A stretch of 64,000 bases of DNA from Labia minor (Eukaryota; Arthropoda; Insecta; Dermaptera; Spongiphoridae). The position numbers and the translations under genes were made by a program. The DNA lies in the NCBI GenBank assembly GCA_963082975.1, contig OY720345.1, forward strand, positions 33,550,611-33,614,610, in the 5' to 3' direction. How positions within the stretch are numbered: the stretch's first letter is position 1; every line of letters begins with the position of its first letter. Below are positions 1-32,690 of this stretch, in pieces. Under the pieces are notes generated by a model. The model was not told where the DNA came from. It worked only from the letters and a program-made list of their open reading frames with translations, and ran no database searches.

Positions 1-61
1 TATTTAATCTATAGAAATTAAACTTATTATTATTATTATATGTATGAATTAAATATTTAAA

Positions 62-644
62 AAAATCTGGAGTGTCTCCACTCTCATAAATTTGAATTGG
101 ATTAAATAACATAAGTATATATTATATATTTAAATTAAATTATAAATTAAAATTAATAAATAATGATTATTAAACCAGCGCGTATTTGACTTTTTGTTGA
201 TGGCACCACGATACGTGCTGGCGCGTGATTTGCAGTGTTAAAAAAATTAATTCCGGTTCTTTCAGCGACTCAATCAAGCTGAAATTCTATATGTAGCAGT
301 TTTATACAATTGTTAATCAAATGTGAAAAACTATCAAAAATTTTTCTTATTTTTATGGTCACTTTAGAGGACAAAAAATGAAAACGTGGTAGGTAATGAC
401 CCTCTTCCGGATTTCTCAAAAGTTGATAGAAAACTACAAATTTTGAATAATGCCCGTGTACCAAATTTCATTATTCTAGCTCAAACCGCTTTTGCGTAAT
501 CTTGTCTACATACACACATAAACACACATTTTTCTCAACCTTAATGAAAATAACTCAGGGACCTTCAAAACGTAAAAAAACATCAAAATCTCGACATCGA
601 AAATTTTCGTGATCGCAACACTATCTATGGCGAGATATTAAAAA
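62..644 (+). repeat. Rep-1 copy 1
   Basis: First of nine or more copies of an interspersed family of about 570-690 bp. Family features in order: a 5' mini-hairpin CTGGAGTGTCTCCA; GACTATCTCGC; an AT-rich block; the conserved motif GGCACCACGTCACGTG; CTCTTCCGGTTGAGC; a (CA)n tract; and a 3' hairpin CTATCTCTGGCGAGATAG followed by TAAAA. This copy has a short CA tract and a mutated 3' loop. It has no coding capacity. Confidence 0.85.
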
Positions 645-1724
645 TATTTTAATGATATACATCTAGTATTATTATTAATAAGTTTTTGACCATAAAAATA
701 AAAATAAATATACAAAATATTATTATATTTCTATTTAATCAATTAAAGATTAAAGACGAGATTGGTATTATATACATAAATAATATTAGATATAAACTAA
801 TGTAATTTTTATTTAACAATAATTATTGTAATATCTGCTAATTCAGTCTGATTGAAAGAAAGAATTGCTCCTGAGGCTAGTTTAGGTCAATGTTAAGCGG
901 TTGATTGTATTATTATACTTTTATCTCTATAAATGTATATTTCCAATAGAAAATACACTATTATAATTGAATTTATTTTGTCCACGAGGCTGAGTTCCTA
1001 GACCCTTATAAGTTAATGTTGTGAGTGTCCTTCCAAGGTCATCAAAACATTAGTTCTATTAGGTATTAGGATATTTATATATATATATATATATATATAT
1101 AAGATTTTAATTCTTTTAGTCTACTATAAATTACGCCCTTCCACTCAAGATAATATTTTATTTTCATCTCACTCTTTTAAAGCACTCCAAAGATAATTTA
1201 GAACGGGATTCAAAACATCAATTCCATTAATTAATACATGAAATAGTATTTTAATACAACATTGGCATCATCAAAGAGTCTCATACCAACCTATCACTGA
1301 TGTAAAGATTTATTATTTCAAAGATATTTTAATTACACTTTAAAAGAAAATTGGCTTAGATGTAAACATCGACAAATCTAGTAACAAAAAAAAAATACTG
1401 TTGTGTTATTTTTTTTTTTTTTTTTTGATTAATAACTTAATTTGTATACAAAAATTGGTAAAGAAAAAAAAACAGTATTATGATTTGATTATCGATAAGG
1501 GAAATAAAAATCTTATGAAACATTCGTATAAAAAATATTATTTATGAACTTTGAATATTATTTGAAGAATGGCATGGGTTAGTTTGGGAATATTAATAAA
1601 TTGGGGTTGGAGCGTTTATAATGAATAACCTCTCTAATAAAATAATTATTATCTTATAATCACATCTATTTGTACATAGATAGAAACAGTCAAAATTTAT
1701 TTTTACGAAAATACAGAAATTATG

Positions 1725-1926
1725 TTTTTACTATCTCACCAGAGATAGTAATGCGATCACGAAATTTTCGGTGAAGAGATTTTGATGTTTTTTTACGTTT
1801 TGAAGGTCCCTGAGTCATTTTCACTAAGGCTGAGAAAAATGCCTGTCTGAGTGCCTGTATGTAGACAAGATTACGCAAAAATGGTTTGAGCTAGAATAAT
1901 GAAATTTGGTACACCGGCATTCAATT
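1725..1926 (-). repeat. Rep-1 copy 2, truncated 3' part
   Basis: Only the 3' third of Rep-1 is present: terminal hairpin TACTATCTCACCAGAGATAGTA, the downstream block, and the GTAGACAAGATTACGC segment without a long microsatellite. The similarity stops at about 1926. Confidence 0.8.
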
Positions 1927-2435
1927 TCTCCTATCTCGGAAATAAATACAATATTAATATTAATTGTAGCAAGTCACACAGCAAATTATTCAAATATTTA
2001 AATTTTTATTGCTTACGAATAAATATTATTTAAATTATTGTAAAAGTTCTCTTTTCAATTAAAACTTATAATTTAATATTAATAGATCATTATTATTGAA
2101 TAATTTTAATTTGAAATATAAGATATTCTTCATTTTTTTTTTAATCATATTATAATATACTTAATATCATTGCCAATCTCTAGACTAAGAATTAATGAAT
2201 AACTCTTCTCGTTTAAAATAATTTTATAAAAATTAAAACCCCTAATAGAGATTCTAAATAACAATTATGGTGATATTCTTAAATGATTATATTAAATAAA
2301 AATATGAATTAGAGAAATTGTTTTTAAAAAATCATATATAATATGACGTGTTGTTTCAAGATTTATAAAATTTTTACTAGTATAAGTTAAATTTTAAATT
2401 AATATAAATATATTAAAAGACATATTATTTAGTTC

Positions 2436-2830
2436 GTACTGAGCATCGATAGGAAGGAAAGGTATTGTTTTCACACCAAATTTCACATGTGGAGATTTTT
2501 ACATATCTCCATGAATCATTGGATTTTGTTAACAGAAAAAGGTATTTTTAGCATGATGTCTTTCCATTATAACTTCAACAGCTCAACGGATTTTGATAAA
2601 ATTTGATACTTTTACTTAACGCACCAGTAGCATGAATTCATCAACTTTTTGTGTATATCCGGAAACCGGAAGTGCTATTTTTCAAAGTATTAATTTTATA
2701 TTCACTGTCGGAAATTTTTTACTTTAAAATATAGTATTAATTAATAATTGAGTAATTAAATTAAAAATAAAAACCAAGATAATATAATTTTGTCATTTTA
2801 TTTAATTCAAGTTTTAAAAATATTTTTTTT
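2436..2830 (+). repeat. Rep-2 fragment
   Basis: Starts at ATCGATAGGAAGGAAAGG and contains CACACCAAATTTCACATGTG, TCAACGGATTTTGATAAAATT and CCGGAAACCGGAAG, then the tail module AAAAACCAAGATAATATAA also seen at 44.9 kb. The right-hand terminus is missing. Confidence 0.7.
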
Positions 2831-3967
2831 TTATAGTTTCTACACAAAAATTATTTTTACTAAAAAATCGATATATATAATATTTCTAATTACACTCATG
2901 AAATACTAGCGCTCAGTTTTAAATCAATTCAAAGAAAAAAATAAAGAATTTAAAAATTTTAAACTCACGCAAAATACCTAATTCTCCCGGCCCAATGACG
3001 TAGCCAGTGTATGAGCTGCGACTATGTACCTGGCGTTTTCTTCCAATGCGTTCGGCCGAGGCTCAAATATAATAATAATTATATATATATATATTATTAC
3101 CTATAGGTCGAAATAAAAATGATATAAAATTTAATTCGACCCCAATCCAATATTATTATATTAAACTAACTGGCAAAATAAAAAATACATATATATATAT
3201 ATATATATAATGTTATTTTTAATTATTCGGTTCTGTTCCTGACCACTTTCAATTAAAATGCATCGTTTGTATAATTATGTTTCTAACTTCTTGAATATTT
3301 TTTTATCTTTAACTTATCCCCGCATAATTACATACAAATCAAAATAATTTTTTTTTTTAAATCAGATAAATAATTAATATTTATATAGATAGAGATTTAG
3401 ATAGATAGATTAGATAATTGAAAACAAACATAACAGTTTGATAAATCCCCTCTTCCCCCTCAGGTGTGATATGGACACAGACAACGACTAGTCTCTCAAA
3501 CACTTTATTTATTTTTTAAATTATATATATTTTTAATTTATAAATTTATCTATAGACTATATAAATTTACTTTATAGGTTAATTTTGAAATAAACTAGAG
3601 GATATAGATTGATATATAAGAATAAAAAAAACAAAGTCCTAGTTTCTCTTATAAATAATTTATTTGCCTTTAATTGATTAAATATTCTTTCTAAGAAAAG
3701 GTTCATCCAAAAAAAAACCTACCTGAAGATAAACCAATATCAAATACATAAATAAACAAAATGTTTCGATAATAAATAAACTTTAAACAAGAGAAAATCT
3801 TTAACACGGCGTTGATTGCTTTCCATTAGACGTTGATAACCTTCTCTAGATATTTATTTTATAGAAAAGACAAGATCTAGTGTAAAAAAAATACTCTTTC
3901 TAGTTCAAACAAATGTAAGTTAATGTCAATTTATTCAAATTAACTATTCTTAATTGGGTTTCTCTTT

Positions 3968-4032
3968 TTACGATCCAGGACCTTCTTGCACCTTTGATGG
4001 ATAATTGACTTCAAAAGGTAATCTCACACTTT
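3968..4032 (-). CDS. Candidate terminal exon (orphan)
   Basis: On the minus strand a pyrimidine-rich tract (TTTTTTTTCTTCTTATTAAAG) is followed by an open frame reading SVRLPFEVNYPSKVQEGPGS and a stop. Composition is more even than its surroundings. No upstream exon was found and the peptide is not recognised. It may be a last exon of an unseen gene or chance. Confidence 0.25.
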
Positions 4033-4699
4033 CTTTAATAAGAAGAAAAAAAATATCAAAATAAGAACATAATGAGAGGATTTAATTTAATGGAATAATC
4101 TTTATCTAATTTATGTGGTTATATAATATTATCTTAATTCACCTCGTTAAAATAAAAAATTATTATGATAAATAATAGTATAACGTTCATATTAATAAAA
4201 ATGTCATTTATTTCAGTGAATGTTAAAAAATATCTATTTTATTTATTTTTTTAACTACACCTTTAACTACACCTTTTTAAATAAACGCTCTTCGATTAAT
4301 TTAATTTAATTTTATTATATAACTAACTTGTCTGTCCGTTTACACCGGTCTTCTCATCTATCCGGAGGTCTGGACTCTCCTTTCTATTATATTAATTAAA
4401 CATTCACTTTTCTGACCTTTTTGAGGTTTGAATCTTCAACTTAAGTTCAGTATTTCATCAATTCTTAACTGAGTTGACTTCATGAATTTATTTATTTATT
4501 TATTTATTGCCTTTATTTGGTTACAAATATTTATTTACAAAAAAAAAAAATTCATGAATTAATATAATTTAAATATATAGATTGATTAAATTATTTAAAA
4601 ATTTTTTCATAATTAAAGCAATTTCATATTGTATTTACAAAATTATATTGATTATTAATAACTTAAGAATAGAGAATGTTTTAATGTTTAATATATAGT

Positions 4700-5390
4700 A
4701 AGTACCTGGTTCACCGAGCCGCCGCTCGGTCATTAAAAAAAGTTATTCCTTATTACTGGGTTTAGCTGGCAATATTTTTAACTGATCCATCGAGCCACCG
4801 TTGAAATAAGTTAAAAGAACATAAAATAGTCTTAAGACATATACACCTTAAACGTGCTTAATGCTCTGAAAGACAGAAAAGTATGGTCTCTGTTGATATA
4901 ACATAATATATATTTCGTAATTTGATTTAATATAATATATTTTATATTTACGGAAGCGCCGTCGGACGAAGTTGATAACATCATTTAAATTTCCAATTTT
5001 AAATTAAGAAAAAACTAATAAACGTTCTGAAACGATTTCAAATAATTTAAATATATGTATTAATGCAATAAAAAACAGATATGGATATAACATAAGTATT
5101 TTTAATTTTATTTTATTTATAATATATTATAATTATATATTTATAAAATATTATAAGGAAACGCTGTATGACGTAGTTGCTGACGTCATATAAATTTAAA
5201 TTAAGAAAAAAACTAATGAAGATGATTTTTTCCGAGGCTGAAATCAATACAGAGCGATTTTTCTTTATAAAAATTATCTATTGTGTGAATTTCAACAAAA
5301 TCCTTAGAGCGGCTTAATATATCCAAAATACAAATATATATACAATTTTAGCTAGTATAATAAGTTAAGTTTAAGATAAGATAAGATATA
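4700..5390 (-). repeat. Rep-3 element, minus orientation
   Basis: Rep-3 in this orientation starts AGTACCTGGTTCACCGAGCC, a hairpin with CGGCTCGGT. It continues with ATAACATAATATATATTTCG, a GGAAGCGCCGTCGGACG module, TAAGAAAAAACTAAT and AGAGCGGTTTAATAT, and ends near TTTTAGCTAGTATAATAAG followed by (GATAA)n. This copy is composite, with parts of the middle duplicated. Confidence 0.7.
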
Positions 5391-6537
5391 TAAATTATTA
5401 TTTTAAAGTTAAAAAATTACGCTTGTTGATTTGAATTAATTACTATGTAATTAATTAATTAATATTCTTTTCATATTTTTTTTCAAAATATCTAAATGGA
5501 TAACAACTTAAGAGTTGGTTGTCCATGTGTTTGGCATGCCTGATGCTATATGACTTATCTTCATAGTAATTAAAATCTATTAGTTTCACAAAAAGTCTAA
5601 ACCTGTTGTCGATGTGTTTAACACTCATGTCTATAATAAAATAATAATTTTGCAAATTGAAAGGAGAAGGAAGTTGGGATGGATAGCATGATATGAAACA
5701 ATATCCAATTCATAATAATAATAAAATTTAAATTTGTTTTTGAAATAAAAATAATTAAATTATAATTGATTAATCTCTCTAACTAATTTAAACTAATTGT
5801 AAGTAGTGTTTTTATTTGAAAATTATCCACTCAATAAATCAATTTTAATTTTTTTTTTTATTTTTTTTTAAATCTTAAGATAAAAATTAAAATATAAATG
5901 AAGTTATATAAAAAAGAAAATAAAGAATCTCAAATATAATTCCAGGTCAAATAAAATCTATAAAAAATTTATTTTAATTATTTTTATTTATTGATATATT
6001 AATATTTAATCATTTTAAATATTTATAAAGCAACTCAAAGAATATTTTTTTAAATTTTTTTATATATGATTAAAATAACGCCTTTTGCCAATCACAAGAG
6101 TAATTACTTAAACATTTCTACAACATATATTTTTTTATTAACTTAGAAAAGAGTTGGAATTAACAATTAAAAGGTATATCATCAAACAATTTATTGTAAA
6201 ACTGATTAATTCGACTTTGATTTGTTTATATTTTTTTAGAATATACAATGTATTATAAGATTTCACGAATGTGATCAAAATCTTCATAATTTTCTCCTGG
6301 GACTCCGGAGTATAATATATGAGATTTTTTAAATAAAAGCAAGATTTATGGCCTAAATATACCATTTTTGTATTGTTTTTAAAATGAATAAATTATGAAA
6401 AGTATACTATATTAGAATTGAATAAAATTAATCTTCAAAGGTAAGTTTTTTAATAAATAAAATAAAATATTTCACCTAAGCAACGAAATGACAGAGAAAG
6501 CCTTTTTAATTCTACAATTTTAACAAACTTAACTTTA

Positions 6538-7329
6538 CGAGGTTTGCTCAAAAGAAAATGTGAATTTTGAATTATTTCGAAAAGCATTTATTTATTCATC
6601 AATATCTATTTTGTCCCCTTCAAAGTAATTCCCCTCAGATATAATGCACTTATTCCAGCGCTTCTTCCAATCGTGGAAGCACTTCTCAAATTTGCTTTTC
6701 AGACTTTATCTGGCAAAAAGCTTTCCTTTCATTGGTCTCTTCAGTTTTGGGAATAAGAAAAAGAACAGGGAGCTACATCTGGTGAATATGGTGTTTGAAG
6801 CATGATTACAGTGTTGTTTTTGGCCAAAAAATCACGAACAAGCAGCTGGTGCATTATTGTGATGCAGAATCCATTATTTGTTTTTCACGCAAACTTTGCA
6901 TAACTTCCTTGTAGTATTCCTTTTTAACAGTACGACCTGTAGGCAAGAACTGATGATGCACCACGAGATTGTAATCGAAGAAAACAGTGAATAAAACCTT
7001 TATATTTGATCGAACTTGGCGTGCTACTTATAAACATTTTTTTGAGACAAAGTAGACAAGTAGCCGAATGCTACAGTCAACATTTTAAGTGCGTTGGAAC
7101 AAAATTTAATACACATTCTTTTATCCATTTTTTTAAGTAAACAAGCAAATAACACACAAAAACGTGTCTAACTTTTTCAGTAGTCAAAAACAAACTACTA
7201 ATCCAAAATGGCTGATAATGTCAACATATGAGAAATATATGTGTACCAATATAACAAAAAAATATCGATAATCGAATGTACACATCCCGCGAAAATTCAA
7301 TATTCACCTTTTCTTTTGAACAGATCTCG
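6538..7329 (-). mobile_element. Mariner-like element, decayed transposase (GVQW3-like)
   Basis: Inverted ends CGAGGTTTGCTCAAAAG / CGAGATCTGTTCAAAAG, each bordered by TA. The minus strand starts near 7130 with a Met-Asp-Lys-Arg-Met-Cys-Ile-Lys-Phe-Cys motif. It then has WILHHNNAPAA (catalytic Asp region), FFLFPKLK, and a C-terminus near 6620-6690 (FEKCFHDWKKRWNKCI, EGNYFEGD). Frameshifts, stops and a large central deletion leave it inactive. Confidence 0.82.
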
Positions 7330-8036: not shown

Positions 8037-8536
8037 GTAACGGGTTTCTATTTCTCTGTCCACTTCCAACTATTTCGAATCTTTTCAGTCTCACAACCCA
8101 TCTTGCTTTTTTCTCCAGTTTCAACAGAATACAACATTCACTTGACATTGCCTAAACTAATAATTTTTAGCGATAAGCCAAAATGGACAGACACATTATG
8201 ATTCGAGGTAGATTAGAGATGCAAATTGGCCATAAACTAAACCATAAGCTCAACGAAAAGAATTTTACGGAAATAAATGTCACTATTAAAGGTTTTTATA
8301 ACATATAAAAAGATAAATATCAATACAAAACAACTTACTGAATGTTTGCTTTTTTAACTTCTTGAGGTACAAATTAATATAATTCTTTAAAATAATACTC
8401 ATAAATTAAATTGAATAAATGTCTTTTGAAATAAATGTGCATATTTTTTCGAATTAATATTAAAAAAAATTAATACTAATTATATCAGTATAATTTTATA
8501 GAAAATACCCGGTTTATTGAGCACAGCAGCTCATTA

Positions 8537-9713
8537 CTTATCTTATCTTATTATACTAGAAATAAGCTGGAGTGTCTCCACTCGACTATCACGCAATTTG
8601 AATTGGATTAAATAACATATATTATATAAAAATTAAATTTAATTAATTAAATTATAAATTATAAATTTAATTATTAGACCAGAGCGCGTTTGGCTCTTTA
8701 TTGATGGCACCACGCGCGTGATTTGCAGTGTTAAAAAATTAATTCCGGTACACTTTCAGTGAATTAATCAAGCTAAAATTCCATATATATAGCAGTTTTA
8801 TAAAATTTTTATTCATGTGAAAAACTATCAAACATATCAAACATATATCTATATTTTTACGGTCACTTTAAAAGGAAAAAAAAATCAAAACGTGGTAGGT
8901 AATGACCCGCTTCTGGTTGAGCAACATTTCTCAAAAGATGTTAGAAAACTACGAATTTTGAATAATGCCCGTATACCAAATTTTACGATTCTACCTAAAA
9001 CCGTTTTTGCATAATCTTACACACATACATACATAGACAGATATTTTTCTCAACCTTAGTGAAAATGGTTCAGGAACCTTCAAAACGTATAAAAACATCA
9101 AAATCCCGACATCGAAAATTTTCCTGATCGCAATACTATCTCTGGCGAGATAGTAAAACTTATATATATGTATTTTTGAAATATTAAACCGCCCTAAGGA
9201 TTTTTTTAAATTCACACCATAGATAATTTTTATAAAGAAAAATCGATCTGTTTCAGCCTCGTGAAATATCATCTTTGTTAGATTTTTCTTAATTTAAAAT
9301 AGGAATTTTAATAATAAAAAAATGGCGCCGGGTAACGCCGGACAGCGCTTCCTTAAATACAAAATATTATAAATAAAATAAAATTAATAATACCTTCCTT
9401 ACTATCGTAGGTCGGTAAAAATATTTATTTTAATAATATATATTTGTAATCAAATTACGAAATATATATTATGTTATATCCACAGACCATACTTTTCTGT
9501 CGTTTGTTGCATTAATACGTACGTTTAAGGGCTGTATGTTTTATGACTATTTTTTTTTCTAATTTATATTCTTTTAAATTATTTATAATTGTTTAATATA
9601 TTTTATCGTTTATTTATTTTAAATAATAAATCTTAATCTTAAATATTCATAGCTCATAAAGAATATTTTTTTTAAATACCTGCTCCGTGAACCAGGTACT
9701 TATTATTATTAAA
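8537..9713 (+). repeat. Rep-3 element interrupted by Rep-1
   Basis: Left part 8537-8562 (CTTATCTTATTATACTAG), then the Rep-1 copy, then 9159-9713 with ATGGCGCCGGGTAACGCC at about 9320 and the hairpin-associated end TGAACCAGGTACTT. The uninterrupted part at 9290-9330 is the empty site for the Rep-1 insertion at 24.3 kb. Confidence 0.78.
8563..9158 (+). repeat. Rep-1 copy 3, inserted in a Rep-3 element
   Basis: Complete copy running from TAAGCTGGAGTGTCTCC to GGCGAGATAGTAAAA. The Rep-3 sequence TTATACTAG...TTTGAAATATTAAACCGCC continues on both sides, so Rep-1 inserted into Rep-3. Confidence 0.88.
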
Positions 9714-11137: not shown

Positions 11138-12111
11138 TGCACTTGTATGTGAATATGAATATATTTTTTTATTGAGTTCATTCTCTCAAAATGAATAGAA
11201 ACTAAATGAAATAATTTATTATACCTTTTATTACGAATATATTATTTTCAGCTATTGAAAACAGTCAGTTGTTATCGTTTATTATAATTTATTTATAAGT
11301 TTATTTATTTATTTAAAAGAAGTTTTAAAATTAAATAAGTTTAATTAATAATTATGAAATGATTATCACTTAAATATCTGTTTAGAAAAATATCATATTC
11401 TATTTTTCGTTTATTTTGGCTTATTGTTAGTCTAGTTTTTCAGATGTATACAAGTATTTCTCTATATATATAAAATATAAAATAATAATATAAAATATAA
11501 AATCCAATAAAAATATTGTTTATAAAAATGAACACAAATAAACAGGTATTTTTTACGTGTAAATTTTTTTTTTTTGTGTACAAATAATTTCCCTATTCCG
11601 CTCAATAGATTTATTCAAGTAACACATCTGATTTTTTTTTTAAATCATAATTTATGCATAGAACATCTTTTTAAATATTCTTAATTTCTCCTTGAATAAT
11701 TTATTTTTCTTTCCCGTAAATTACTTACTTTAGAAAATAATAAATTAAAAAATAATTAATATTTTAACTAGTTATTCTAAATGAATTGAACAATAAAATC
11801 GATTATTAAGTTTAATAATAATAAATAATGAAAAATATAAATAAATTAATTTCTCTAATGCATTGTATGATACGATATTTAATTAATTCTTTTAATTATT
11901 TAATATGAATAAAAGATTTGCAATTAATTTTTTTTTTTTTTTATAATTTCACCTTAAAATGATAGGCATAGAAGCGTGAATTGAGAATTTTTTTCTCAAG
12001 GAAATATTAAAAAGTGATTGATTCCAAAAAAAAGGTCCATTGCTAACTATACATTTTCGTTTTTTAAGTAATTTGTTGATAAAAATATTTCCTTTTTTAA
12101 CGATTCATTAT

Positions 12112-12802
12112 TTTTACTATCTCGCCAGAGATAGTTTTGCGATCATGAAAATTTTCGATTTTGAGATTTTGATGTTTTTATACGTTTTGAAGGTTCCTGA
12201 ATCATTTTCACTAAGGTTGAGAAAAATGTCTGTGTGTGTGTATGTGTGTGTGTGTATGTGTGTGTATGTGTGTGTGTGTGTATGTGTGTATGTGTGTGTG
12301 TGTATGTGTGTGTGTATGTGTATGTGTGTGTGTGTGTGTGTATGTAGACAAGATTACGCAAAAACGGTTTGAGCTAGAATGATGAAATTTGGTACATGGA
12401 CATTATTCAAAATTCATAGTTTTCTATCAACTTTTGAGAAATGTAGCTCAACCGGAAGAGGGTCATTACCTACAACGTTTTGATTTTTTTTCCTCTAAAG
12501 TGACCGTAAAAATAAAAATATATGTTTGATAATTTTTTACATAATTAATAATTGTATAAAACTGCTATATATAGAATTTCAGTTTGATTGAATCGCTGAA
12601 AGTACCAGAATTAATTTTTTAGCACTGCAAATCTCACGCGCCAACACGTGCCATGGTGCCATCAATAAAAAGCCAAACATGCGCTGGTTTAATATTTATT
12701 ATTTATAATTTATAATTAATTAAATTTAATTTAAATATAATATATTATGTTATTTAATCCAATTCAAATGCGAGATAGTCGAGTGGAGACACTCCAGCTA
12801 AT
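12112..12802 (-). repeat. Rep-1 copy 4 with long (TG)n tract
   Basis: Complete minus-orientation copy, from TTTTACTATCTCGCC to CTCCAGCTAA. The microsatellite (about 12230-12345) is expanded to over 100 bp of TG with interspersed TATG. Long open frames of Val/Cys or His/Thr repeats over it are artefacts of the tract. Confidence 0.88.
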
Positions 12803-14753: not shown

Positions 14754-15505
14754 CAGGGATGGGCAAACTTTTTTAGGATGCGGTCTACTTCTAATTTTTT
14801 TACAATAAGTCGGTCCACCAGATATTTATTAAAATAATAATAATAAACAATGTGGTATAAATGTACATAGGTAACTAAAAAAATAGAATAAGAAAGGAAC
14901 TTAGGTATATATTTTCAAACAAAATTTAAAGATTATAAAAGTATAAAAATATCAAGTTCATAAGAAATATTCTGATTCGAATTATTATTTAAGATAAAGT
15001 CATGTGAAATTGTCCGCATTAGAAGATTTACACTGCATATCCTCTGCTAATTTAGTAAATCTTGGTGTATAATTACTAACTGCCAGTCTTGTACTGCATT
15101 CGAGGTGATTGTCTGTAAGACGGGAGCGATATTTTGATTTAATTATATTCATCGTAGAAAATGCAGATTCACATAGGTAGGTAGAGCCAAAGAACGATGT
15201 TAAATTTAATGCGAGACCTTTTAAATTAGGATACTTAACTTCGTCCATTAAATTCCAAAAAATATTTGTAGGATCTGAATTATGTGCTTTTAAAATTATG
15301 TCATTTTGAAGAAGAAGAACTTCATCTTCCTCAATAGTTATAGAAAACAATTCGTTTATATTTTTGGTTATTTCTTCCCCGAGTAATGGAATTTTTTATA
15401 TGCTAAGGAGTAGTTTAAGTAAAAAAGGCAATGAGTAAAGGCGATCACTTTAAAATGACTCGGCGGTCCACCAGTCGATCGCGATCGACTTAATGCCCAT
15501 CTCCG
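14754..15505 (-). mobile_element. hAT element remnant with transposase C-terminus
   Basis: Ends CAGGGATGGGC and inverse of CGGAGATGGGC, flanked by perfect 8-bp duplications TATTACAT (14746-14753, 15506-15513). Subterminal motifs GGTCCACCAG/GGTCTACTTC are present at both sides. At 752 bp it is an internally deleted copy. On the minus strand, 15350-15000 encodes 116 residues of a hAT C-terminal dimerisation region (FFGSTYLCESAFSTMNIIKS...), similar to GTF2IRD2/SCAND3-type domesticated hAT proteins. No catalytic core is present. Confidence 0.88.
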
Positions 15506-15513
15506 TATTACAT

Positions 15514-18500
15514 TATATATACCTATATAAAAATATTGTAATATATTATAAAATATTTATGTTTTTAGAATTTTTGATATTTTTATAGAGCGTTTATTAT
15601 ATTTATTATAATAAACGTTAAAATTGATGCATAAAAAATATTTATTTTGTATACTGAATTCTCATCTCGTTAAGTTACAAATTTTAATAAAAACATCGTG
15701 AATATGGCATATTTTTAATAGTGTTTGGCAATCAATTGAAATATCATTTAATAAAAATTTATAGATTTCTGTTGCGTTTATCAAGATTACCATAAATGAC
15801 AAATCACCGGTTGGTTAAAGAAATGCTAATGCAATTTGAGACAGAGACAAAATCAAGATATATATTTCTATAGGGATATTAGAAATGTTGTATATAATAG
15901 TTGATTTGTTGAATAGCGATCTGAGCTATGTTTTATTCCTTCGTTTGAATCTCTAATTAGTGATGAGAACATTAACGAACTGTTGAATTAAAGGTCCCTA
16001 CGGTATCGAAAAATTCTCGTTAATCATTTCGGCGATCCCTTTTCATTGGATTTCAACATATCCGCATCCGATGGTTTCAGATTGATCATTAATTTTCAAT
16101 GTTTGTTTGAAATTTAAGTAGAATGAAAGCTTAAATAAAGAATGACAGGTTAGAAACTAATAATTTTTAATATACATCCTAATAATTTTATATTGCTTAA
16201 AAATATATATGTATTATATATATTGTTTTGTTTTTTTTTTGTACATAATTATTGATTTCGATTTTTTTAATAGGTAAAAATAAATGAATAAAAAAAAATA
16301 AAATTAAAATATTTTTCATAAAAATAAAATTCGACTATCTCGCAAATTTGAATTGGATTAATTAACATATATTATATTTAAATAAAATTTAATTATATAT
16401 ATATATATTATAAATTAAAATTAATAAATAATATTTATTACACCAGAGCGCGTTTGGCTCTTTGTTGATGGCACCACGTCACGTGCTGGAGCGTGATTGG
16501 CAGTTAACGTGTTAAAAAATTTACTTTAAGCCATTTAATCAAGCTGAAATTCTATATATAACACTTTTATACAATTTTTAATCATTTGAAAAACTATCAA
16601 ACGTATATCTTTATTTTTATGGTCAGTTTAGAGGAAATAATGAAAACGTTGTGGTAATGGTCCTCTTCCGAATGAGCTACATTTCTCAAAGGTTGATAGA
16701 AAACTACGAATTTTGAATAATTCCCAAATTTCATTATTCTAGCTCAAACCGTTTTTGCTTAATCTTGTCTATTTACATACACATACACACACACACACAC
16801 ACGCACACACACAGAGAGAGACATTTTCCCCAACCTTAGTGAAAATGACTCAGGAACCTTCAAAACGTATAAAAACATCAAAATCTCGACATGGAAAATT
16901 TTCATGATCACAATACTATCTTTGGCGAGATGGAAAATGACAATATAATTAATATATATAGTAACTATAATCTTTGTAATTGAAATTTCAAATTAAATCT
17001 TAAAGTCAAACAATTTTATTTTAATATCATATGGTTAAAAAATATATTTTTTTGTTTATGTAGAATTTTTAAGGTTTATTGGATGTTAGATAAAACACAA
17101 GTAATACCTCACTATTAAATAAATTATTATTTATTAAGATAAATATATTTTTTTTAATCAATCTTTTGAAGAGTAGAGGTACTTTGTTGAAGCAAGATGA
17201 TCTAGTCGTATTTCTTGTACCGAGAATGCTCGTTAAGATTAGAATAAGAGATTTATTTGATTTAGGAGTTGAACTCGAATAGCCTAATTGACAAATAAAC
17301 TCTCAATCAGTTAAACAAGCAACGCCCTGATGTCATTTAAAGAAACTAGTTGGAATTTATATATCAAAATTTATAAAATGTATAAATATTTGTAACAAAA
17401 GCGATATATTTTTGCTATGGTAACTTGAACACGTTGGGGATTCCCTTGAACAAAAGGATAATAAATATAATATATATACATATATATATAATGTATACCT
17501 ATACCTTTCTAATATTTTTAATTTTATTATTTGTACACATTTTGTGTTCTTATTGTAAATTTTCTGTTTTAATTTTATTAATTAAGTTGAAAAAAATGTG
17601 CTTTAAATTTAAAAAAAGCATCACTTATAAAATTTCAGATTTCTTAATTATTTAAACCATAAGTATTATTATTGTAAACAATTTTTAATAAATATTTTTA
17701 CAATTTTTAAATAAATATTTTGATTGATTTTACTTATTCTAATAAATTTTGAAAAATAAAAAAATAACTCTCATTTTAGGTAACTTGAATGGTCGCAGTT
17801 ATTTAATAGCAATTTTATTAACAAGTTTATTCATGAATTCCGGCTTCGATGCTTATTTCTTTCGTTTATTAGTTCATAAATAATATTTTTTACAATTATC
17901 TATATATCTTTCAAACTCTCCTACCTAGTAACATTTTATAAAAGGTTTGACAAATCAACAACATATGTACTCAATTTACAATTTTTAAAAAATCTTACTT
18001 AAACATTTTAAGGAAATGAAGAAGATTAATTTGATATATTAGAAATAAAAATTTAATCAATATCAATATTTATTTAAAATTTAATTATCTAATCCAGCCC
18101 TAGATAAATATAAATATTAATTTATATAAATATATATATATTCTTAATATTAGGCTTCCCAGATATCTTCTTTTGTCCGGGACGGTCGGGGTTTGCCATT
18201 TTATTCAAGTCAATTGATAAAGATTGCAGAATTTAGGTCTTAAACAGAGAAAAACTTGAAAAAAATATAGCGTCCAACACTCGCCTTTTTAAAAAAATAA
18301 CAAGGAATTTTTGTAAAGAAATCACTCTAATGAGAAATATTAAATCAATATAATAATATAAAAAATAAATATCAAAAATAGATCAATAAATAGTTTTGTA
18401 GATTTAACTCTCACTTAATAATATGTAATAATATATGATTATGAGTTAGCAGGTTGTGCATTCTCTATTTTGAACAAATCCCCAAATTAGTCCCAATTTA

Positions 18501-19635: not shown

Positions 19636-20160
19636 AAATATCTTATCTTATCATACTAGGAAAAATTGTATATATATAGTTATATTTTTGAAATATTAAA
19701 CCGCTCGAAGGATTTTTTTGAAATCCACCCCATAGGAAATATTTATAAAGTAAAATCGATCTGTATTGGTTTCGAGAAAAATCATCTTCATTAGTATTTT
19801 CTTAATTTAAATTTATATGACGCCACCAACTACGTCAGCCTGCGCTTCATCATATATAAAATATATTATAAATAAAATAAAATTAAAAATATGTATTTTA
19901 ATAATATTTTGTAATCAAATTACGAAATATATATTATGTTATATCCACAGGCCATACTTTTCTATTTTTCGGTGCATTAATACGTAAGTTTAAGGGCTGT
20001 ATGTTTTATGAGTATTTTTTTAATTTATGTATTATTTAAATAATTTGAAATTATTTCATATATTTTGTCGTTTATTTATTTTAAATAATAATCTTAATTT
20101 TAAATATTCATAGTTCATAAAGAATATTTTTTTTCAAATACCGCGAGCCGCGATACTTAA
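19636..20160 (+). repeat. Rep-3 element, uninterrupted
   Basis: From ATCTTATCTTATCATACTAGG through TTGAAATATTAAACCGCTCG, GACGCCACCAACTACGTCAG and CATACTTTTCTATTTTTCGG to a degraded end hairpin (ACCGCGAGCCGCG). It gives the simplest view of the family, about 525 bp, with no coding potential. Confidence 0.78.
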
Positions 20161-24092: not shown

Positions 24093-25240
24093 ATTATCTT
24101 ATCTTATCTTATTTTATTATATTATACTAGCAAAAATTGTATATATATATTTGTTTTTTTGAAATATTAAACCGCTCTAAGGAGTTTTATGAAATTCACA
24201 CCATATATAATATTTATAAAGAAAAATCGATCTGTATTGGTTTCAGGAAAAATCAACTTTATTAGTTTTTTCTTAATTTAAAATAGGAATTTTAATAATA
24301 AAATTAGCTGAAGTGATTCCACCCGACTATTTCGCAATTTGAATTGGATTAAATAACATAATATATTATATTAAAATTCAATTTAATTAATTATAAATTA
24401 TAAATTAAAATTAATAGATAATATTTATTAAACCAGCGCATGTTTAGCTCTTTGTTGATGGCACCACATCACGCGCGTGAGATTTGTAGTGTTAAAAAAT
24501 TAATTCTGCTACTTTCAGCGATTCAATCAAGCTGAAATTCTATATATAGCAGTTTTATTCAATTTTTAATCATGTGAAAAATTATCAAACATATATTTTT
24601 ATTTTTACGGTCACTTTAGAGGTTAAGCTAAGTTTCTCAAAAGGTGATAGAAAACTACGAATTTTGAATAATGCCCATGTACCAAATTTCATGATTCTAG
24701 CTCAAACCGTTTTTGCGTAATCTTGTCTACTTACATACACACATACACACACAGACAGACATTTTTCTCAACCTTAGTGAAAATAGTTCAAGAACCTTCA
24801 AAACGTATAAAAACATCAAAATCTCAACATCGAAAATATTCGTGATCGCAATACTATCTCTGGCGAGATAGTAAAAATGGCGCCGGGCAACGCCGGACAG
24901 CTCTACCATATATACAAAATATATTATAAATAAAATAAAATTAAAAATATTTATTTTAATAATATTTTGTAATCAAATTAAGAAATATATATTATGTTAT
25001 ATCCACAGGCCATACTTTTCTATTTTTCGGTGCATTAATTCGTACGTTTAAGGGGTGTATGTTTTATGACTATTTTTTTTTTTTTTTTTTGTAATTTATG
25101 TTCTTTTAAACAATTTGAAATTTTTTAATATATTTTGTCGTTTATTTATTTTAAATAAATAATCATCTTAATCTTAAATATTCTTAGTTCATAAGGAAAT
25201 TTTTTTTTAAAATACCGAGCCACGGCTCGGTGAACCAGGT
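24093..25240 (+). repeat. Rep-3 element interrupted by Rep-1
   Basis: 24093-24303 and 24877-25240 are the two halves of one Rep-3 copy. The right half starts ATGGCGCCGGGCAACGCC and ends with the intact hairpin ACCGAGCCACGGCTCGGT followed by GAACCAGGTACT. Confidence 0.82.
24304..24876 (+). repeat. Rep-1 copy 6, inserted in a Rep-3 element
   Basis: Runs from TTAGCTGAAGTGATTCC to GGCGAGATAGTAAAA. The flanks AATTTTAATAATAAAA and ATGGCGCCGGG are contiguous in the uninterrupted Rep-3 copy near 9310, which gives the empty site. It lacks the CTCTTCCGG segment. Confidence 0.9.
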
Positions 25241-25973: not shown

Positions 25974-26590
25974 TTTTTACTATCTCGCCAGAGATAGTAT
26001 TGCTATCATGAAAATATTCGATGTCGAGATTTTGATGTTTTTATACGTTTTGAAGGTCCTTGAGTCATTTTCACTAACAATAAGGTTGAGAAAAATGTCT
26101 GTGTGTGTGTGTATGTGTGTTTGTAGACATAATTACGCAAAAACGGTTTGAGCTAGAATGATGAAATTTGGTACACGGACATTATTCAAAATTCGTTGTT
26201 TTCTATCAACTTTTGAGAAATGTAGCTCATTCGGAAGAGGAACATTGCCTACCACGTTTTCATTTTTTCCCTCTTAAACTGTCCGTAAAAATAAAGATAT
26301 ATGTTTGATAGTTTTTCACATGATTAAAAATTGTATAAAACTGCTATATATACACAATTTCAGCTTTATTGAATTGCTGAAAGTACCAAAATTAATTTTT
26401 TAACACTACAAATCACGCGCCAGCACGTGACATGGTGCCACCAACAAAGAGCCAAAGACGCGCTGGTTTAATAAATATAATTTATTAATTTTAATTAATA
26501 ATTTATAATTAATTGAATTTAATTTAAATATAATATATGTCAATTTACCCAATTCAAATTTGCTAGATAGTCGAGTGGAGACACTTCAGA
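25974..26590 (-). repeat. Rep-1 copy 7
   Basis: Complete minus-orientation copy, from TTTTTACTATCTCGCC to GTGGAGACACTTCAGA, with a short (TG)n tract at about 26100. Confidence 0.88.
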
Positions 26591-27927
26591 TTTTTTTTTT
26601 TTATTTATTTGATGTGGAAGTATAAAGTTTTTATCTAATGCTAATGTAACAATACAATCACGATTTAGATTAATTTATGTATATTCAAATTTCTATTTTT
26701 ATTTAGAATAAAGCGTGTGATCTGTATTAATTACTTTGACAACTAAACTATATATATATAATACAATATGTATATATATATATATAATCGATTTTACAAT
26801 AAGTGCTGGTCTATTAAGAAAATTTCTTATATAATTTAAATTTCATTCTATGTAAGAATTACTTTTTATAATCAATTGTTCTCAGATGATCATAATCTTT
26901 TAAAATTTTTTTACTTGTATAGATCTTTCATCATGTCATAAATAAGTATTTCTATTTAAATTTCCAAAATAAATAAATTTATATAAATATTTTAAATTAA
27001 CTATTATTATTATACTCTTGAAGGTTTAAATATAATTCATAAGTATAATCAGTAGCTAATATAGTGATTATGTATTTAATAAGCTAAGCAACGGATTTGA
27101 TTATAGAAAAGAAAACCTAACTAATTTTATATACTATATTTATCGACTACTGAACCTCTCTTATGAGAGACATTAATATCACAGACAAGTATAATAATAT
27201 TTATTTTTCTGTTTCAATAGCAATTTCTGTTTTTCCGTCATTCTAAAATTGAATTTATTATAGAGCTTTCAAATTCTTATAAATAATTTAACAGAATAAT
27301 TAAATGATACTAAGATATAATTTCAATTTGAAAATAAAATAAATGAAGCATGTATTTTTATTGATATTTCATTAGAAGATAACAAGCACAATTATCGTTA
27401 TTTTTCAATGTATTTCTGTATTATAAATACGATTTTAATTAAAAGAAGTATCTATAAATTAAGTAGTAACCAAGAGTATGGATATAGGATCACATAAATA
27501 GTATTTTAAAATTGTACTCCTGACTGACCGAATTGATTGATTAGTACCGTTTTTTTCTCTATTAAGTCTAATTAAAATAGAAAAAAATACTGTTTCTATA
27601 ATCACGTCTAAAATACATCTATTTCTTGTAGATTACTATAATTATTAAATTTGTCGGGTTTTAAATTTTCAAATTTTATAAAAATTAAAGATTCCACAGG
27701 TTATTTTTTAACTTTAAAAAGGAAGAGATTTATATATTTTTGAAATGTTGTATGTATCTATGTATATAATATATTGAACGAGGCCCAATCATTGAAAGAA
27801 AGAGGTCACCAAACATTATTTTGTTTGCTCATCCTCTGTACATTAGTACGGCAATGGAATGCATTGATAGACGAGAGTCAATTCAACACACAATTCTGTT
27901 AGTTGATAATAAGAGGACATTTAGATA

Positions 27928-28457
27928 AATTCAGAGATTAGCATATAGCATATACTAAATAAATTTATTTAATTTTTTTATTTTTTTTTATTTTTAAACT
28001 TTAAATATAATTTTATTATTAAATTAGGTTGAAAATATATCCGAGTATTTTACTAAAATATAAAAAAATGATATAATTATATCAAAAATTGAGATGAAAA
28101 AATTAAGAAAAATAACATTATTAGATTATAATTGATATATATATCTTTTAAAATTGTTACCGTCTTTTATTTTTACGATAAGAACCATTAAACAGAACAA
28201 AATTGTGATCCCATATTCTTAAGGCATATTTTTAGCAATTTAACTAAATCATCTTTTAAGATTCATTATAGAAAATCTTTTCAAAAAAAATCTTATTCTC
28301 CTGCCAAATATTTAAATTATTTAATTTATTTCTTAATTTAGATAAAAAAAAATTGAATTAATAATTAAAAAGAAAATTAAAATTAATCAAATGCATTATT
28401 ATTAATATATCATATATGTATAATTAAATTCAGAGATTAGCATATAGCATATACTAA
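27928..28457. repeat. 466-bp insert between perfect 32-bp direct repeats
   Basis: The 32-bp sequence starting AAATTCAGAGATTAGC occurs at 27928-27959 and again at 28426-28457. Between them, 28032-28140 matches 21873-21984 and 28143-28424 matches 23007-23292. The two matching blocks are adjacent here but about 1.0 kb apart at the other locus. Confidence 0.85.
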
Positions 28458-28759
28458 CCTATATACTACTGAAATTAATTATTTATTAATATTATTATTA
28501 TTATTATCATTATTATTGAGTCTGTAATCTTGAAAAAATAATAATATTTGGAATCTTCAATCTGTTTTTTCTGAGTTCATTAATAATAAAAGGCAAATAA
28601 AAATTAAAAATAATTATTTAATCGATTTTATTAGTGTATATAGAGTAGTCAAGCAATTAGAAAACAAGATTGGTTCCTGTATTTTTGGAAATAGGATTTT
28701 TCAAAGATTCCTGGCGGAAATGAGAAATTATGTAAAATTTATGCATCTCCAAACATAGT

Positions 28760-28990
28760 TATAAAATGGAGGAGTTTTTGATGGACAGGACGCATGACTA
28801 ATGTATGAAAAATGGCTAGAAAAAAATGTATTTATATCAAATAGGGTAAACGACCAGTGAATAGACTAAGGATGTGATAAATTGACAATATTGTATAAAA
28901 AAAAAATTGAGAAAAGATAGGAATTTAAAAAAGATGGTTGGAGGAATGTGGTTGCTGAAAAACTTTCAAATATGAACTACCGAAATAGAA
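28760..28990 (+). pseudogene. Possible LINE ORF2 C-terminal relic
   Basis: Broken frames contain GRPVNR-like sequence followed about 30 codons later by WRNVVAE. This pairing recalls the GRP...W...A tail found at the end of several LINE ORF2 proteins. No domain can be traced. Low-confidence relic directly beside the Rep-1 copy at 29039. Confidence 0.3.
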
Positions 28991-29038
28991 AGAAAGATAA
29001 TTATTATTCAATTTCTGAATGTAGCAAAGGAATAAGTT

Positions 29039-29155
29039 ATTTTTACTATCTCGCCAGAGATAGTATTGCGATCACGAAAATTTTCGATGTTGAGATTTTG
29101 ATGTTTTTATACGTTTTGAAGGTTCCTGAATAATTTTCACTAAGGTTGAGAAAAA

Positions 29156-29195
<40 letters not shown>

Positions 29196-29657
29196 GGCAA
29201 GATTAAGCAAAAACGGTTTGAGCTAGAATGATGAAATTTGGTACATGGCCATTATTCAAAATTCATAGTTTTCTATCAACTTTTGAGAAATGTAGCTCAA
29301 CCGGAAGAGGGTCATTACCTACAACGTTTTGATTTTTTTCCCTCTAAAGTGACCGTAAAAATAAAGATATATGTTTGATAATTTTTCACATGATTAATAA
29401 TTGTATAAAACTGCTATATATAGAATTTCAGCTTGATTGATTCGCTGAAATTACCAGAATTAATTTTTTAACACTGCAAATCTCACGCGCCAACACGTGA
29501 CGTGGTGCCATCAACAAAAAGCCAAACATGCGCTGGTTTAATATTTATTATTTATTATTTATAATTTATAATTAATTAAATTTATTTAAATATAATATAT
29601 TATGTTATTTAATCCAATTCAAATTGCGAGATAGTCGAGTGGAGACACTCCAGCTAA
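29039..29657 (-). repeat. Rep-1 copy 8
   Basis: Complete minus-orientation copy bounded by TTTTACTATCTCGCC and CACTCCAGCTAA, with a perfect (TG)n tract around 29160-29185. One of the least degraded copies. Confidence 0.9.
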
Positions 29658-31072
29658 TTTAATTTTGAAATTATACTTGCAAGTAAATTAAAAATAATTA
29701 TTGATTTTTAATTAAATATTTTAATTGAATTTATAATTCAAGTAATCCGTCTGTCATCTTCATTTTATCAACATTTTAGACTTAAAGCTATAATAAATTC
29801 ATAATGGTAAGCAACAGAGCAATTAAATCTTTTAATACCCCTAACAAGTAATATAATATCAATTCATCCCTTTGTAAAATAATCAATTATTATTATTAAT
29901 ATAAATGTGATTTATTTAATTTCTTCATTCCACTCTTAGGAGTTTGGGTTTGTGTAATACCAAATGAAAATAATTATATATAAAATATATGAGTTAATAT
30001 AAACAAATAGAATACATAATTTATTATTTCTATCTACAAATAATATATAAATTTTATGTTCATGGTCTAATGAAATTACATACAGTAGGAATTTTAATAT
30101 AATTTTTTATTTAGGTCGAGGATTATTAAACAAAGAAAAAATAGTTTCATCAAAGAATGTTAACTAAAGTTTAAAAAAAAAATCAAAATCGACTTAATGA
30201 ATAAGTTTATCCAAAGGCGTTTAAGAGAAAAATTTAATATCATAGTGTTGATTAAGTATTTAATTTATCGAAAATTGATTAATTTATAATTCAAAATAAG
30301 ATTATATTTTTTCATGAAAAATTTTTTATTTATATTGATTTGTGTTATATAAAATATTTAATACCCAAATTCTTCACTGATAAATAAATACTTGATATTT
30401 ACAATTAAAAAACATTTTATTATAATAATTATAATATATTTTTTTAAAATATAAACAAACTTATATTCTGCCTCAATATTGATTTTGACTGTTTTGATAT
30501 TTTAGATATGTAAGTAAATATATATATATATAATTATTTTTTTTTAATTAAATACAAACTTGAAAAAAATACTATGATTTCCTCAAATTATATATTTTCA
30601 AAACTGACCAAAACATAAAAGTAGATTATTTTCTATAAAATAACAATTAAAAGCTCCAATTAGTACAAAAAAAAATCAAGAAAGAATATTTAATTAATAT
30701 TTTACTTTAACTTTTAGTTTTTATTAGTATTTTTTTAATTTTTAATAATATTTATTTTTATAGTAAAAATAATTTTGGTAGGGTGTGATCACTCAATTTT
30801 GAATATATATTAATGTTAAATAAAAAGAAAGTTAAATCACGGATTGATAAGTACATCATTTATGTGATGAGTTATATTTATTAAAATAAAATAATTTAGA
30901 GATTCATTTATATAGTCAAAAGGTCTTTTTTTAAGAACCGGCGTATTGCAAAAGACAAATTGTATTACAATAATATGTGATAAAATATTAGCTCTAAATA
31001 TATTTATATTATATAAATATAATAAATTTATGTGGAAAGGGTAAATACTCACTATTTAATATGAGAGCCTGC

Positions 31073-31300
31073 AGGAGTTGATGTCATTCAAGGAACATGA
31101 TGCAGAACTGGAGCACTAACTAGAGAGATCAAGATAAGACAGATGAAGGGTAACAGAACGAATAACAAACACCCATACTCGTCAGCCACCGCGAAGAGAA
31201 CTGACCAGACCTGAGAAGGAATCGGGGAACAGGTATGGCACGCTTCGCGCATGCGCATCTCAACAACAGCTACCTGGCTTCTTTTTTTATTCTTACTCAA
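31073..31300. promoter_or_regulatory. GC-rich patch with NRF1-like and CRE-like motifs
   Basis: An unusually GC-rich 230 bp in AT-rich DNA. 31246-31257 reads CGCGCATGCGCA, a perfect NRF1-type palindrome. 31079-31086 is TGATGTCA, a CRE/AP-1-like octamer. A good donor (GGAACAG then GTATGG, near 31232) on the plus strand could end a 5' untranslated exon. The nearest plus gene, the CARP, starts coding 2.0 kb downstream. An antisense frame of 70 codons also covers it, but its peptide is not recognised. Confidence 0.4.
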
Positions 31301-31471
31301 TTAATTAATTCGTTGCCATCTCTATTCATCCCTCCAGATTATAAAAAATAAAAATGAATATCACGCGAAAAAGTAAGAGTTTTTCATAATTTAATTGGAA
31401 GTTTTAATTCACCTATTTTTAAATAGAATAAATAAATTATTTTTTTAATATTTATAAATTATATATAAAAA

Positions 31472-32278
31472 AATCTGGAATGTCTCCACTCGACTATCTC
31501 GCAAATTTGCATTGGATAATCAAGCTTTTTTCTAGATTTGAAAATTAATTAAAATTTTATTTTATCCGATTATAGGATTCAATGGATTTAACATAATTTT
31601 CAATGATAAGATTTTATTATAATAAGAAGGCAATCAAATAATATCAACATTGTTTTGATTTTTTTTCAACGTAAATAAAATACGGTTGGGACGCGGTAAA
31701 ACATAGTCTAGCCTAGTCTAAAGATAGATCTTAATAATTAAATTTTTTAAATTATTTAATAATTTAATTTTAATTTAATTAAAAGTTCATTAAACTAATA
31801 ATTTAATTAAATTTAATTAATAAATAATTAAAATTAATTTAATTCAATTCAATTCAAAAACATAATATATTATATTTAAATTAAATTTAATTAATTATAA
31901 ATTATAAATTAAAATTAATAAATAATATTTATTAAACCAGCGCATCTTTGACTCTTTGTTCATGGCACCACTTCACGTGTTGGCGCGTGAGATTTGCAGT
32001 GTTAAAAAATTAATTCTGGTACTTTCAGCGATTCAATCAAGCTGAAATTCTATATATAGCAGTTTTATACAATTTTTAATCATGTGAAAAATTATCAAAC
32101 ATATATCTTTATTTTTACGGTCACTTTAGAGGAAAAAAATCAAAACATTGTAGGTAATGACCCTCTTTCGGTTGAGCTACATTTCTCAAAAGTTGATAGA
32201 AAACTACGAATTTTGAATAATGCTCATGTACCAAATTTCATGATTCTAGCTCAAACCCGTTTTTGCGTAATCTTGTCT

Positions 32279-32351
<73 letters not shown>

Positions 32352-32467
32352 TTTTTCTCAACCTTAGTGAAAATGATTCACGAACCTTCAAAACGTATAA
32401 AAACATCAAAAACTCGACATCGAAAATTTTCGTGATCGCAATACTATCTCTGGCGAGATAGTAAAAA
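31472..32467 (+). repeat. Rep-1 copy 9, interrupted
   Basis: The 5' part (31472-31518) and the remainder (31860-32467) are separated by about 340 bp of unrelated AT-rich sequence with TTAATTTAATT runs. The microsatellite is (CA)n(GA)n(CAGA)n at 32285-32350. Confidence 0.85.
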
Positions 32468-32690
32468 TGAAAACCTGGTAGGTAATGGTCCTCTTCCGAA
32501 AGAGCTACATTTCTTAAAAGTTGATAGAAAACTACGAAATTTGAATAATGCCCGTATACCATATTTTATTATTCTAGCTCAAACCTTTTTTACGTAATCT
32601 TGTCTACATACACACACACAACACACTCATTTTTTTCAACCTTTAGTGAAAATAACTCAGGAACCTTCAAAACGTGTTAAAACACCAAAA
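32468..32690 (+). repeat. Rep-1 3'-half in tandem behind copy 9
   Basis: Immediately after the 3' end of copy 9 comes a second partial unit, beginning at the GGTAGGTAATGGTCCTCTTCCG segment and running through a (CA)n tract to about 32690. It lacks the 3' hairpin. Confidence 0.8.

Follow-up and report, generated by a model that had tools for sequence, protein, structure and literature searches.

An abundant non-coding repeat of Labia minor, very probably a HINE, shares both of its ends with a 12-kb Helentron

HINEs of the mite Metaseiulus occidentalis are deletion derivatives of Helentrons (Thomas, Vadnagara and Pritham 2014, PMC4067079). They derive from an element encoding Rep, helicase and endonuclease, have no coding capacity, carry a palindromic 5' subterminal repeat and a 3' subterminal repeat followed by a palindrome, and sit in an unmodified T-rich target. 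DINE-1/INE-1 of Drosophila (Yang and Barbash 2008, PMC2374699) has subterminal inverted repeats, a 3' stem-loop and a microsatellite near its 5' end, inserts into TT, and is present in hundreds to thousands of copies. A lepidopteran Helitron family (PMC4344730) has a 3' hairpin, subterminal inverted repeats and (CTGT)n behind the 5' repeat. The features listed for the mite HINEs and for DINE-1 recur in Rep-1, a repeat family in the first 33 kb of a 64,000-nucleotide stretch of the genome of Labia minor (Dermaptera; assembly GCA_963082975.1, contig OY720345.1, positions 33,550,611 to 33,614,610, forward strand), called the window below. Furthermore, its microsatellite is placed as in the lepidopteran family when Rep-1 is read in the coding orientation of its partner. 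Rep-1 is almost certainly a HINE, i.e. a DINE-1-like non-autonomous Helentron, which lacks the coding interior of a 12-kb Helentron; elements of this kind are known, and in Labia minor the family has undergone a strong expansion.

The host genome (604,477,936 bases in 71 contigs) was searched for Rep-1 and its possible source. A Rep/helicase-coding element with both Rep-1 ends was found at locus L193 (contig C1, 47862609-47874777, minus strand; 12,169 bp by coordinate arithmetic). The original prediction, made from the letters of the window, had likened Rep-1 to DINE-1/HINE non-autonomous Helentrons and had suggested looking for an element that encodes Rep/helicase and has the 3' 40 bp in common with Rep-1; this partner supports the likeness. 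The last 41 bases of Rep-1 (578-618) recur in L193 at 41 of 41 positions (100%), 1.2 kb past the open frame. At the other end the shared part extends over about 500 bp: Rep-1 1-500 is 92.9% identical to the 5' end of L193, which lies upstream of the frame and starts with the same hairpin after T's. Rep-1 and L193 agree over the whole of the subterminal repeats. Rep-1 joins the 5' ~527 bp of the partner to the partner's last 41 bp through an AT-rich stretch of ~50 bp. Another repeat is nested within L193.

The open frame of L193 comprises 2,181 amino acids without a stop. Matches above the Pfam cut-offs were obtained for DUF6570, Helitron_like_N (residues 650-776) and PIF1 (1249-1468), and residues 114-200 of a 236-residue C-terminal piece matched Exo_endo_phos_2 (PF14529) with E = 8.5e-5. 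The motifs GDFN and TQIDIV were also located in the frame; we take them to be those of a putative AP-type endonuclease. Many Helentrons also have a separate RPA or OTU frame; other frames of at least 120 amino acids lie near the main frame of L193. Rep motif 2 reads VEFQMRGSPHEH and is of the Helentron-type GSPH; GLPH in this motif marks canonical Helitrons and GSPH marks Helentrons (PMC4067079).

Helitron_like_N matched the genome at 104 places. GSPH was read at L187-L190, L192, L193 and L194 and GLPH in the other matching rows, some loci being without a row. The genome contains GLPH Helitron frames as well as other GSPH Helentron frames, and the autonomous relative of Rep-1 might instead be a canonical Helitron or belong to another Helentron lineage. 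Such a lineage is present at C1:44.70 Mb: upstream of the coding part of this Helentron lies a sequence that is related to Rep-1 130-284 but diverged (70%). However, Rep-1 ends were found in none of 30 Rep loci of ~3.5 kb, stretches too short to reach most element ends. Among three GSPH Helentron loci read at 10 kb (L192, L193 and L194) a Rep-1 end occurred at L193 only, 267 and 1,167 bp being covered upstream of the L192 and L194 frames; these three belong to the 104 Rep matches, and other autonomous copies may exist. A canonical Helitron is further contradicted by the target, a T-run and not A/T, and by the absence of CTRR at the Rep-1 3' terminus, as read from the sequence. We consider an origin from either of these other sources very improbable.

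The Helentron at C1:44.70 Mb (L207, C1:44699000-44706500, reverse strand 1-5544) encodes a protein 55-58% identical to the Rep-1 partner and is possibly an older sister lineage. Furthermore, a canonical Helitron family (GLPH) was observed at seven loci (L168-L174, e.g. C9:43365333), which are identical over the 658 bp compared; six of their frames have 1,651-1,652 amino acids and one has 1,537. This suggests that a second rolling-circle lineage was active very recently.

The ends of L193 could also be two Rep-1 copies that happen to flank an unrelated gene; this arrangement is disfavoured by three observations at two other loci. A second coding copy at C1:44.69 Mb is 96-99% identical to L193 over the stretch covered; the similarity ends no more than 5 bases from the L193 3' terminus, and the flank beyond differs. 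On contig C60, Rep-1 1-527 (94.2%) runs directly into ~101 bp of the partner's own interior (97% over 338 bp). This interior piece belongs to the coding element, because the C1:44.69 copy has partner positions 2335-2458 (96.1%), which overlap the piece on C60, directly before its coding part. About 1 kb before the 3' end of L193 is missing from the C1:44.69 copy. A DNA search with the 5' interior of the partner returned mostly the nested repeat (query 195-530); besides L193, matches to the partner's own part were limited to C60 (query 1-101) and C1:38992899 (12-126, 80%).

Read in the coding orientation, Rep-1 starts after a T-run with the hairpin ACTATCTC-GCCA-GAGATAGT, whose first 10 bases are the subterminal repeat. 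Next come a conserved region of ~90 bp, the microsatellite TGTCTG(TG)n and a mostly conserved region of ~400 bp, part of which is AT-rich. The 3' end consists of GCGAGATAGT (the 3' subterminal repeat), C, the palindrome GAGTG-GAGA-CACTC and CAG; after CAG stands CTAA, CTTA or ATTT and then T-rich flank. The tail outside the 3' repeat, with its own palindrome, thus measures ~22 nt. This orientation is the reverse of the one proposed at first, because the coding partner reads from what had been called the 3' hairpin to what had been called the 5' mini-hairpin; the former is the true 5' end and the latter the true 3' end. An inverse match between the two end regions had also been noted. It exists, corrected to 10 bp, as ACTATCTCGC/GCGAGATAGT, which agree within one element; at least 11 bp of identical subterminal inverted repeats are used for assignment to one family in the 2014 scheme (PMC4067079), and those of Rep-1 agree over 10 bp. 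As single-stranded DNA, the 5' hairpin folds with z = -5.26, and none of 200 shuffles was as good.

BLAST with one copy as query detected 10 Rep-1 copies or pieces in the window between 67 and 32691, in agreement with the earlier count of at least nine in 33 kb. Apart from two pieces and one longer variant, there are seven copies of ~570-690 bp, whose length differences lie mostly in the TG/CA tract. The hairpin CTATCTC-TGGC-GAGATAG (18-base core) was found at 9 window sites with ≤3 mismatches, as compared to 0.01 expected from 100 shuffles. The mini-hairpin formerly ascribed to each copy is intact or recognisable in seven of the ten and absent from those starting at 1725, 16331 and 32463, and the 26-base 3' end is exact in only two window copies. 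No stretch of the window encoded the partner protein at E 1e-3.

Two Rep-1 copies interrupt a Rep-2 repeat that is present uninterrupted elsewhere in the window; these are paralogous empty sites, one of them clean. Rep-2 is a second AT-rich repeat family and Rep-1 target, observed at 9160-9632, 19639-20094, 24110-24282 + 24890-25164 and ~5220-5369 (reverse). In case A (copy 6), the empty site reads GCGCCA-T7-ATTATT and the filled site GCGCCA-T5, the element ending CTAA, and T4-ATTATT; one of the two remaining Rep-2 copies has this empty site, and the other, at 19639, differs there. In case B (copy 3), empty sites read ACAA-T5 (two) or ACAA-T4-A (one) before CTAG, and the filled site reads AAG-T4, the element ending CTTA, and T3-CTAG. 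About two T's were gained on insertion in both cases, and no duplication beyond the T's was seen at the two sites. Furthermore, TAAAA had been noted after the hairpin of each copy; these A's are largely target, since the A-run (T-run on the other strand) is found in the empty sites.

The flanks of further copies were compared. A list of 36 end pairs was reduced to 24 by removal of duplicates and short flanks, and to 21 when three ends-only elements were set aside; some mutated copies of the window, copy 6 among them, fell below its thresholds. TT directly precedes the 5' hairpin in 19 of the 21 elements (exceptions L140 and L160) and occurs within six bases after CCAG in all 21. Rep-1 targets T-rich sequence without target modification beyond T's.

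The 10-bp inverted repeat near both ends would also suit a miniature inverted-repeat transposable element (MITE) derived from a cut-and-paste transposon. ACTATCTCGC/GCGAGATAGT would then serve as terminal inverted repeats, and a 2-bp TT target duplication would likewise give the gain of about two T's at both empty sites. But these repeats do not stand at the very ends, the 3' one lying ~22 nt inside behind the palindromic tail, and the repeat together with 16 nt of this tail recurs exactly 16,671 times in the genome. The two Rep-1 ends, as read from the sequence, form no terminal inverted repeats. The element that has both ends encodes Rep and helicase, and no DDE transposase family matched its frame. 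Neither the inverted termini nor, beyond the T's at the two empty sites, the target duplications typical of a cut-and-paste superfamily, which the original prediction had named as evidence to the contrary, were observed, and we regard a MITE as highly unlikely.

A short interspersed element (SINE) or the 5'-truncated tail of a long interspersed element (LINE) was also weighed. In the orientation proposed at first, a hairpin followed by TAAAA would form the recognition end for target-primed reverse transcription, the targets are A-rich, and three A-box-like matches lie on one strand of the copy scanned. This explanation has next to no probability: the two empty sites show no duplication of several bp, the A-run is already present in the empty target, and both ends are conserved and common to an element encoding Rep and helicase. 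Moreover, no B box of the Pol III promoter that would have marked Rep-1 as a SINE was found in the one copy scanned, and no tRNA in the window (ARAGORN).

Several observations weigh against Rep-1 as a HINE of the L193 Helentron. L193 is the sole element found with both Rep-1 ends: the C1:44.69 copy is truncated on the 5' side at partner position 2335, with another Helentron alongside; the C60 locus was covered over its 5' part; and 2.5 kb of a third copy, on C10, contained no 3' end. No Rep-1 5' end of matching orientation stands before the match to the partner interior at C1:38992899, and a complete Rep-1 copy lies nearby in the other direction. Within L193, part of the Rep-1-like block (Rep-1 291-527) is present twice, the second time behind the first 500 bases. 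The Exo_endo_phos_2 match reached 22.8 bits and stayed below the cut-off of 27.4, and near motif 2 the other Helentron signature (F/Y, w/l/y/k, R) is only partly present, as Y-E-R. The subterminal repeat has 10 bp in Rep-1 as compared to 12-15 bp in mite HINEs, and the distance from the 3' repeat to the end is ~22 nt as compared to 38-60 (PMC4067079). In DINE-1 the repeat has 13 bp and a different sequence (PMC2374699). The fold of the Rep-1 3' piece is unremarkable (z = -1.56), with 16 of 200 shuffles as good. In case B, single-base differences from the empty copies occur on both sides of the T-run; they may reflect variation among Rep-2 copies. An additional difference from DINE-1 concerns the microsatellite, GTCY-rich there (PMC2374699) and mostly TG in Rep-1.

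Genome-wide, the exact 18-mer hairpin occurs at 5,026 + 4,969 = 9,995 sites and the exact opposite end, GCGAGATAGTCGAGTGGAGACACTCC, at 8,246 + 8,425 sites (16,671 in total); the reversed-pattern controls gave 0 in both cases. Both totals comprise exact matches only and are lower bounds on the number of Rep-1 copies. Based on 16,671 exact 3' ends and ~600 bp for each full copy, Rep-1 would roughly account for ~1-2% of the 604-Mb genome, mutated ends being uncounted. Exact 3' ends outnumber exact 5' hairpins despite the longer 3' pattern. At 11 of 30 sampled 3'-end loci no recognisable 5' end was found within 1.5 kb. Longer patterns detected no relatives of Rep-1 outside the host in viral and genome contigs, collections that may omit the host and its near kin. 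A 14-base pattern matched at least 120 stretches of viral contigs; it was too short, the matches were presumed to be chance, and the loci were left unused.

The age of Rep-1 was estimated from 21 nearly full copies, 17 from the first sites on contig C1 that have one exact end and four from the window; this sample is biased towards young copies. The distance to the consensus was 0.5-2.6% for 14 copies of the CTAATT type (after CCAG), 5.8-9.9% for three CTTATT copies and 5.8-24.5% for four ATTTTT copies. The sampled CTAATT-ended copies are young. These distances fit waves of Rep-1 activity, the last one recent, and CTAA-ended L193 is a plausible source of the latest wave.

Additionally, three 38-nt elements consisting of ends only were observed, in which the 5' hairpin is fused to the 3' palindrome, each behind a T-run. 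The ends-only pattern has three genome sites, and six at one mismatch; two of the six read GCGAGAGATAG and may be ordinary 3' ends. Ends-only elements could have arisen in a full copy by deletion between its two GAGATAGT repeats, or could themselves have moved as minimal elements.

Most likely, Rep-1 is copied by the related 12-kb Helentron with the same two ends, whose protein would work in trans. By analogy with Helentron biology, Rep or the endonuclease would nick the T/T boundary at the 5' end, the PIF1-type helicase would peel off one strand, the 3' palindrome would signal termination, and the released strand or circle would join a nicked T-rich target.

The least expected feature of the partner is an in-frame Ulp1-like protease. 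Peptidase_C48 (PF02902) is the best Pfam match of this region (E = 8.3e-4; 19.7 against a cut-off of 20.7), and SENP8 is the best solved structure (E = 0.014). HW from residue 2083, Asp (FDS) at ~2098 as located by eye, QQN from 2131 and DCG from 2136 give the order His-Asp-Gln-Cys, which we take to be that of Ulp1/C48; the first letter of HW is presumably the catalytic His. Endonuclease and then protease regions were found in three genomic copies, with a single open frame only in L193; in L196 Asn replaces Asp and the frame is broken, and L197 has stops.

Helentrons with a deubiquitinase (Erven et al. 2022, PMC9741609) combine Rep, helicase and AP endonuclease with an extra protease, as L193 appears to do. 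Their protease is VTD, with a catalytic Asp-x-His motif, or OTU, in contrast to the His-Asp-Gln-Cys order of L193. The Ulp1-like protease in the frame also distinguishes the Rep-1 partner from the partners of Metaseiulus HINEs (PMC4067079). No description of a Helentron or Helitron fused to an Ulp1/C48 protease was found in the literature searched, which left subscription journals mostly uncovered. Tentatively, and with somewhat less than even confidence, the partner may belong to a Helentron lineage whose Rep-Helicase-Endonuclease protein ends in an Ulp1/SENP8-like (C48) protease.

Positions of the window copies, of single features in the reference copy, of the empty sites and of the ends-only elements are collected in Table 1. 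Copy 9 at first seemed to be chimeric or to have captured 325 bp by read-through; this view was dropped, as the segment recurs in the genome. The ~325-bp segment lies in the 3' interior, and 40 loci out of 830 candidates in the genome were scored for it. Three other loci were read for the composite: it is nearly complete in L204, L205 has the greater part, 5' end included, and L206 has the 3' half together with the 3' end. Copy 9 is a longer Rep-1 variant keeping both ends, because the segment recurs with Rep-1 sequence at these three loci.

Table 1. Rep-1 copies and related features in the window, and ends-only elements elsewhere in the genome. Rep-1 strands follow the coding orientation of its Helentron partner.
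Feature	Position	Strand	Remarks
Rep-1/HINE copy 1	67..644	-	5' hairpin ~620-639, 2 mismatches; 3' end ATTTTT-type
Rep-1 copy 2	1725..1921	+	5' part only; 3'-truncated piece
Rep-1 copy 3	8565..9158	-	in T-run at start of Rep-2 repeat; empty-site case B
Rep-1 copy 4	12111..12801	+	long (TG)n tract 12227-12345
Rep-1 copy 5	16331..16937	-	3' end without last ~19 nt
Rep-1 copy 6	24304..24877	-	in T-run within Rep-2 repeat; empty-site case A
Rep-1 copy 7	25974..26589	+	
Rep-1 copy 8	29040..29657	+	reference copy; 618 bp with flanking T's
5' terminal hairpin ACTATCTC-GCCA-GAGATAGT (copy 8)	29045..29064	+	5' subterminal inverted repeat in its first 10 nt
TGTCTG(TG)n microsatellite (copy 8)	29156..29194	+	~110 bp from 5' end
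3' subterminal inverted repeat GCGAGATAGT (copy 8)	29626..29635	+	inverse of ACTATCTCGC
3' palindrome GAGTG-GAGA-CACTC (copy 8)	29637..29650	+	then CAGCTAA and T-rich flank
Rep-1 copy 9	31475..32467	-	~990 bp variant; like ends; alternative interior 31518-31842; BLAST in two blocks
Rep-1 copy 10	32463..32691	-	interior piece, older copy; adjoins 5' end of copy 9 at A-run
Empty-site A7/T7 run, case A	9316..9322	.	in Rep-2 copy 9160-9632
Empty-site A5/T5 run, case B	19661..19665	.	in Rep-2 copy 19639-20094
Ends-only element L129	C4:5198454-5198488		
Ends-only element L130	C6:57482924-57482958		
Ends-only element L131	C10:54082576-54082610		

Other elements and genes were observed in the window. 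An open frame of 868 amino acids at 39307-41913 (+) has DUF4371 and a hAT dimerisation domain, and a second hAT fragment lies at 15000-15395 (-). Exons of an SNF2-type helicase gene, HELLS/LSH-like by eye, are located at 54773-57248 (-), and a possible PPR-repeat protein, below the cut-off and mitochondrial RNase P-like by eye, at 58398-59255 (+). A 328-nt inverted repeat (35027-35354 / 37338-37665), with arms 97% complementary and 1,983 nt apart, is possibly a separate foldback or terminal-inverted-repeat element.

An abundant orphan repeat of Labia minor is hereby tied to its likely source through ends, orientation and target site. If the partner does end in an Ulp1-like protease and this protease is active, transposition would involve a desumoylase or deneddylase, replacing the OTU and VTD deubiquitinases of other Helentrons, for which several roles in transposition have been suggested (PMC9741609; PMC4067079). 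A Helentron with an Ulp1-like protease beside a large, apparently recent non-coding expansion would make the role of an accessory protease testable, with an intact open frame and thousands of substrates at hand.

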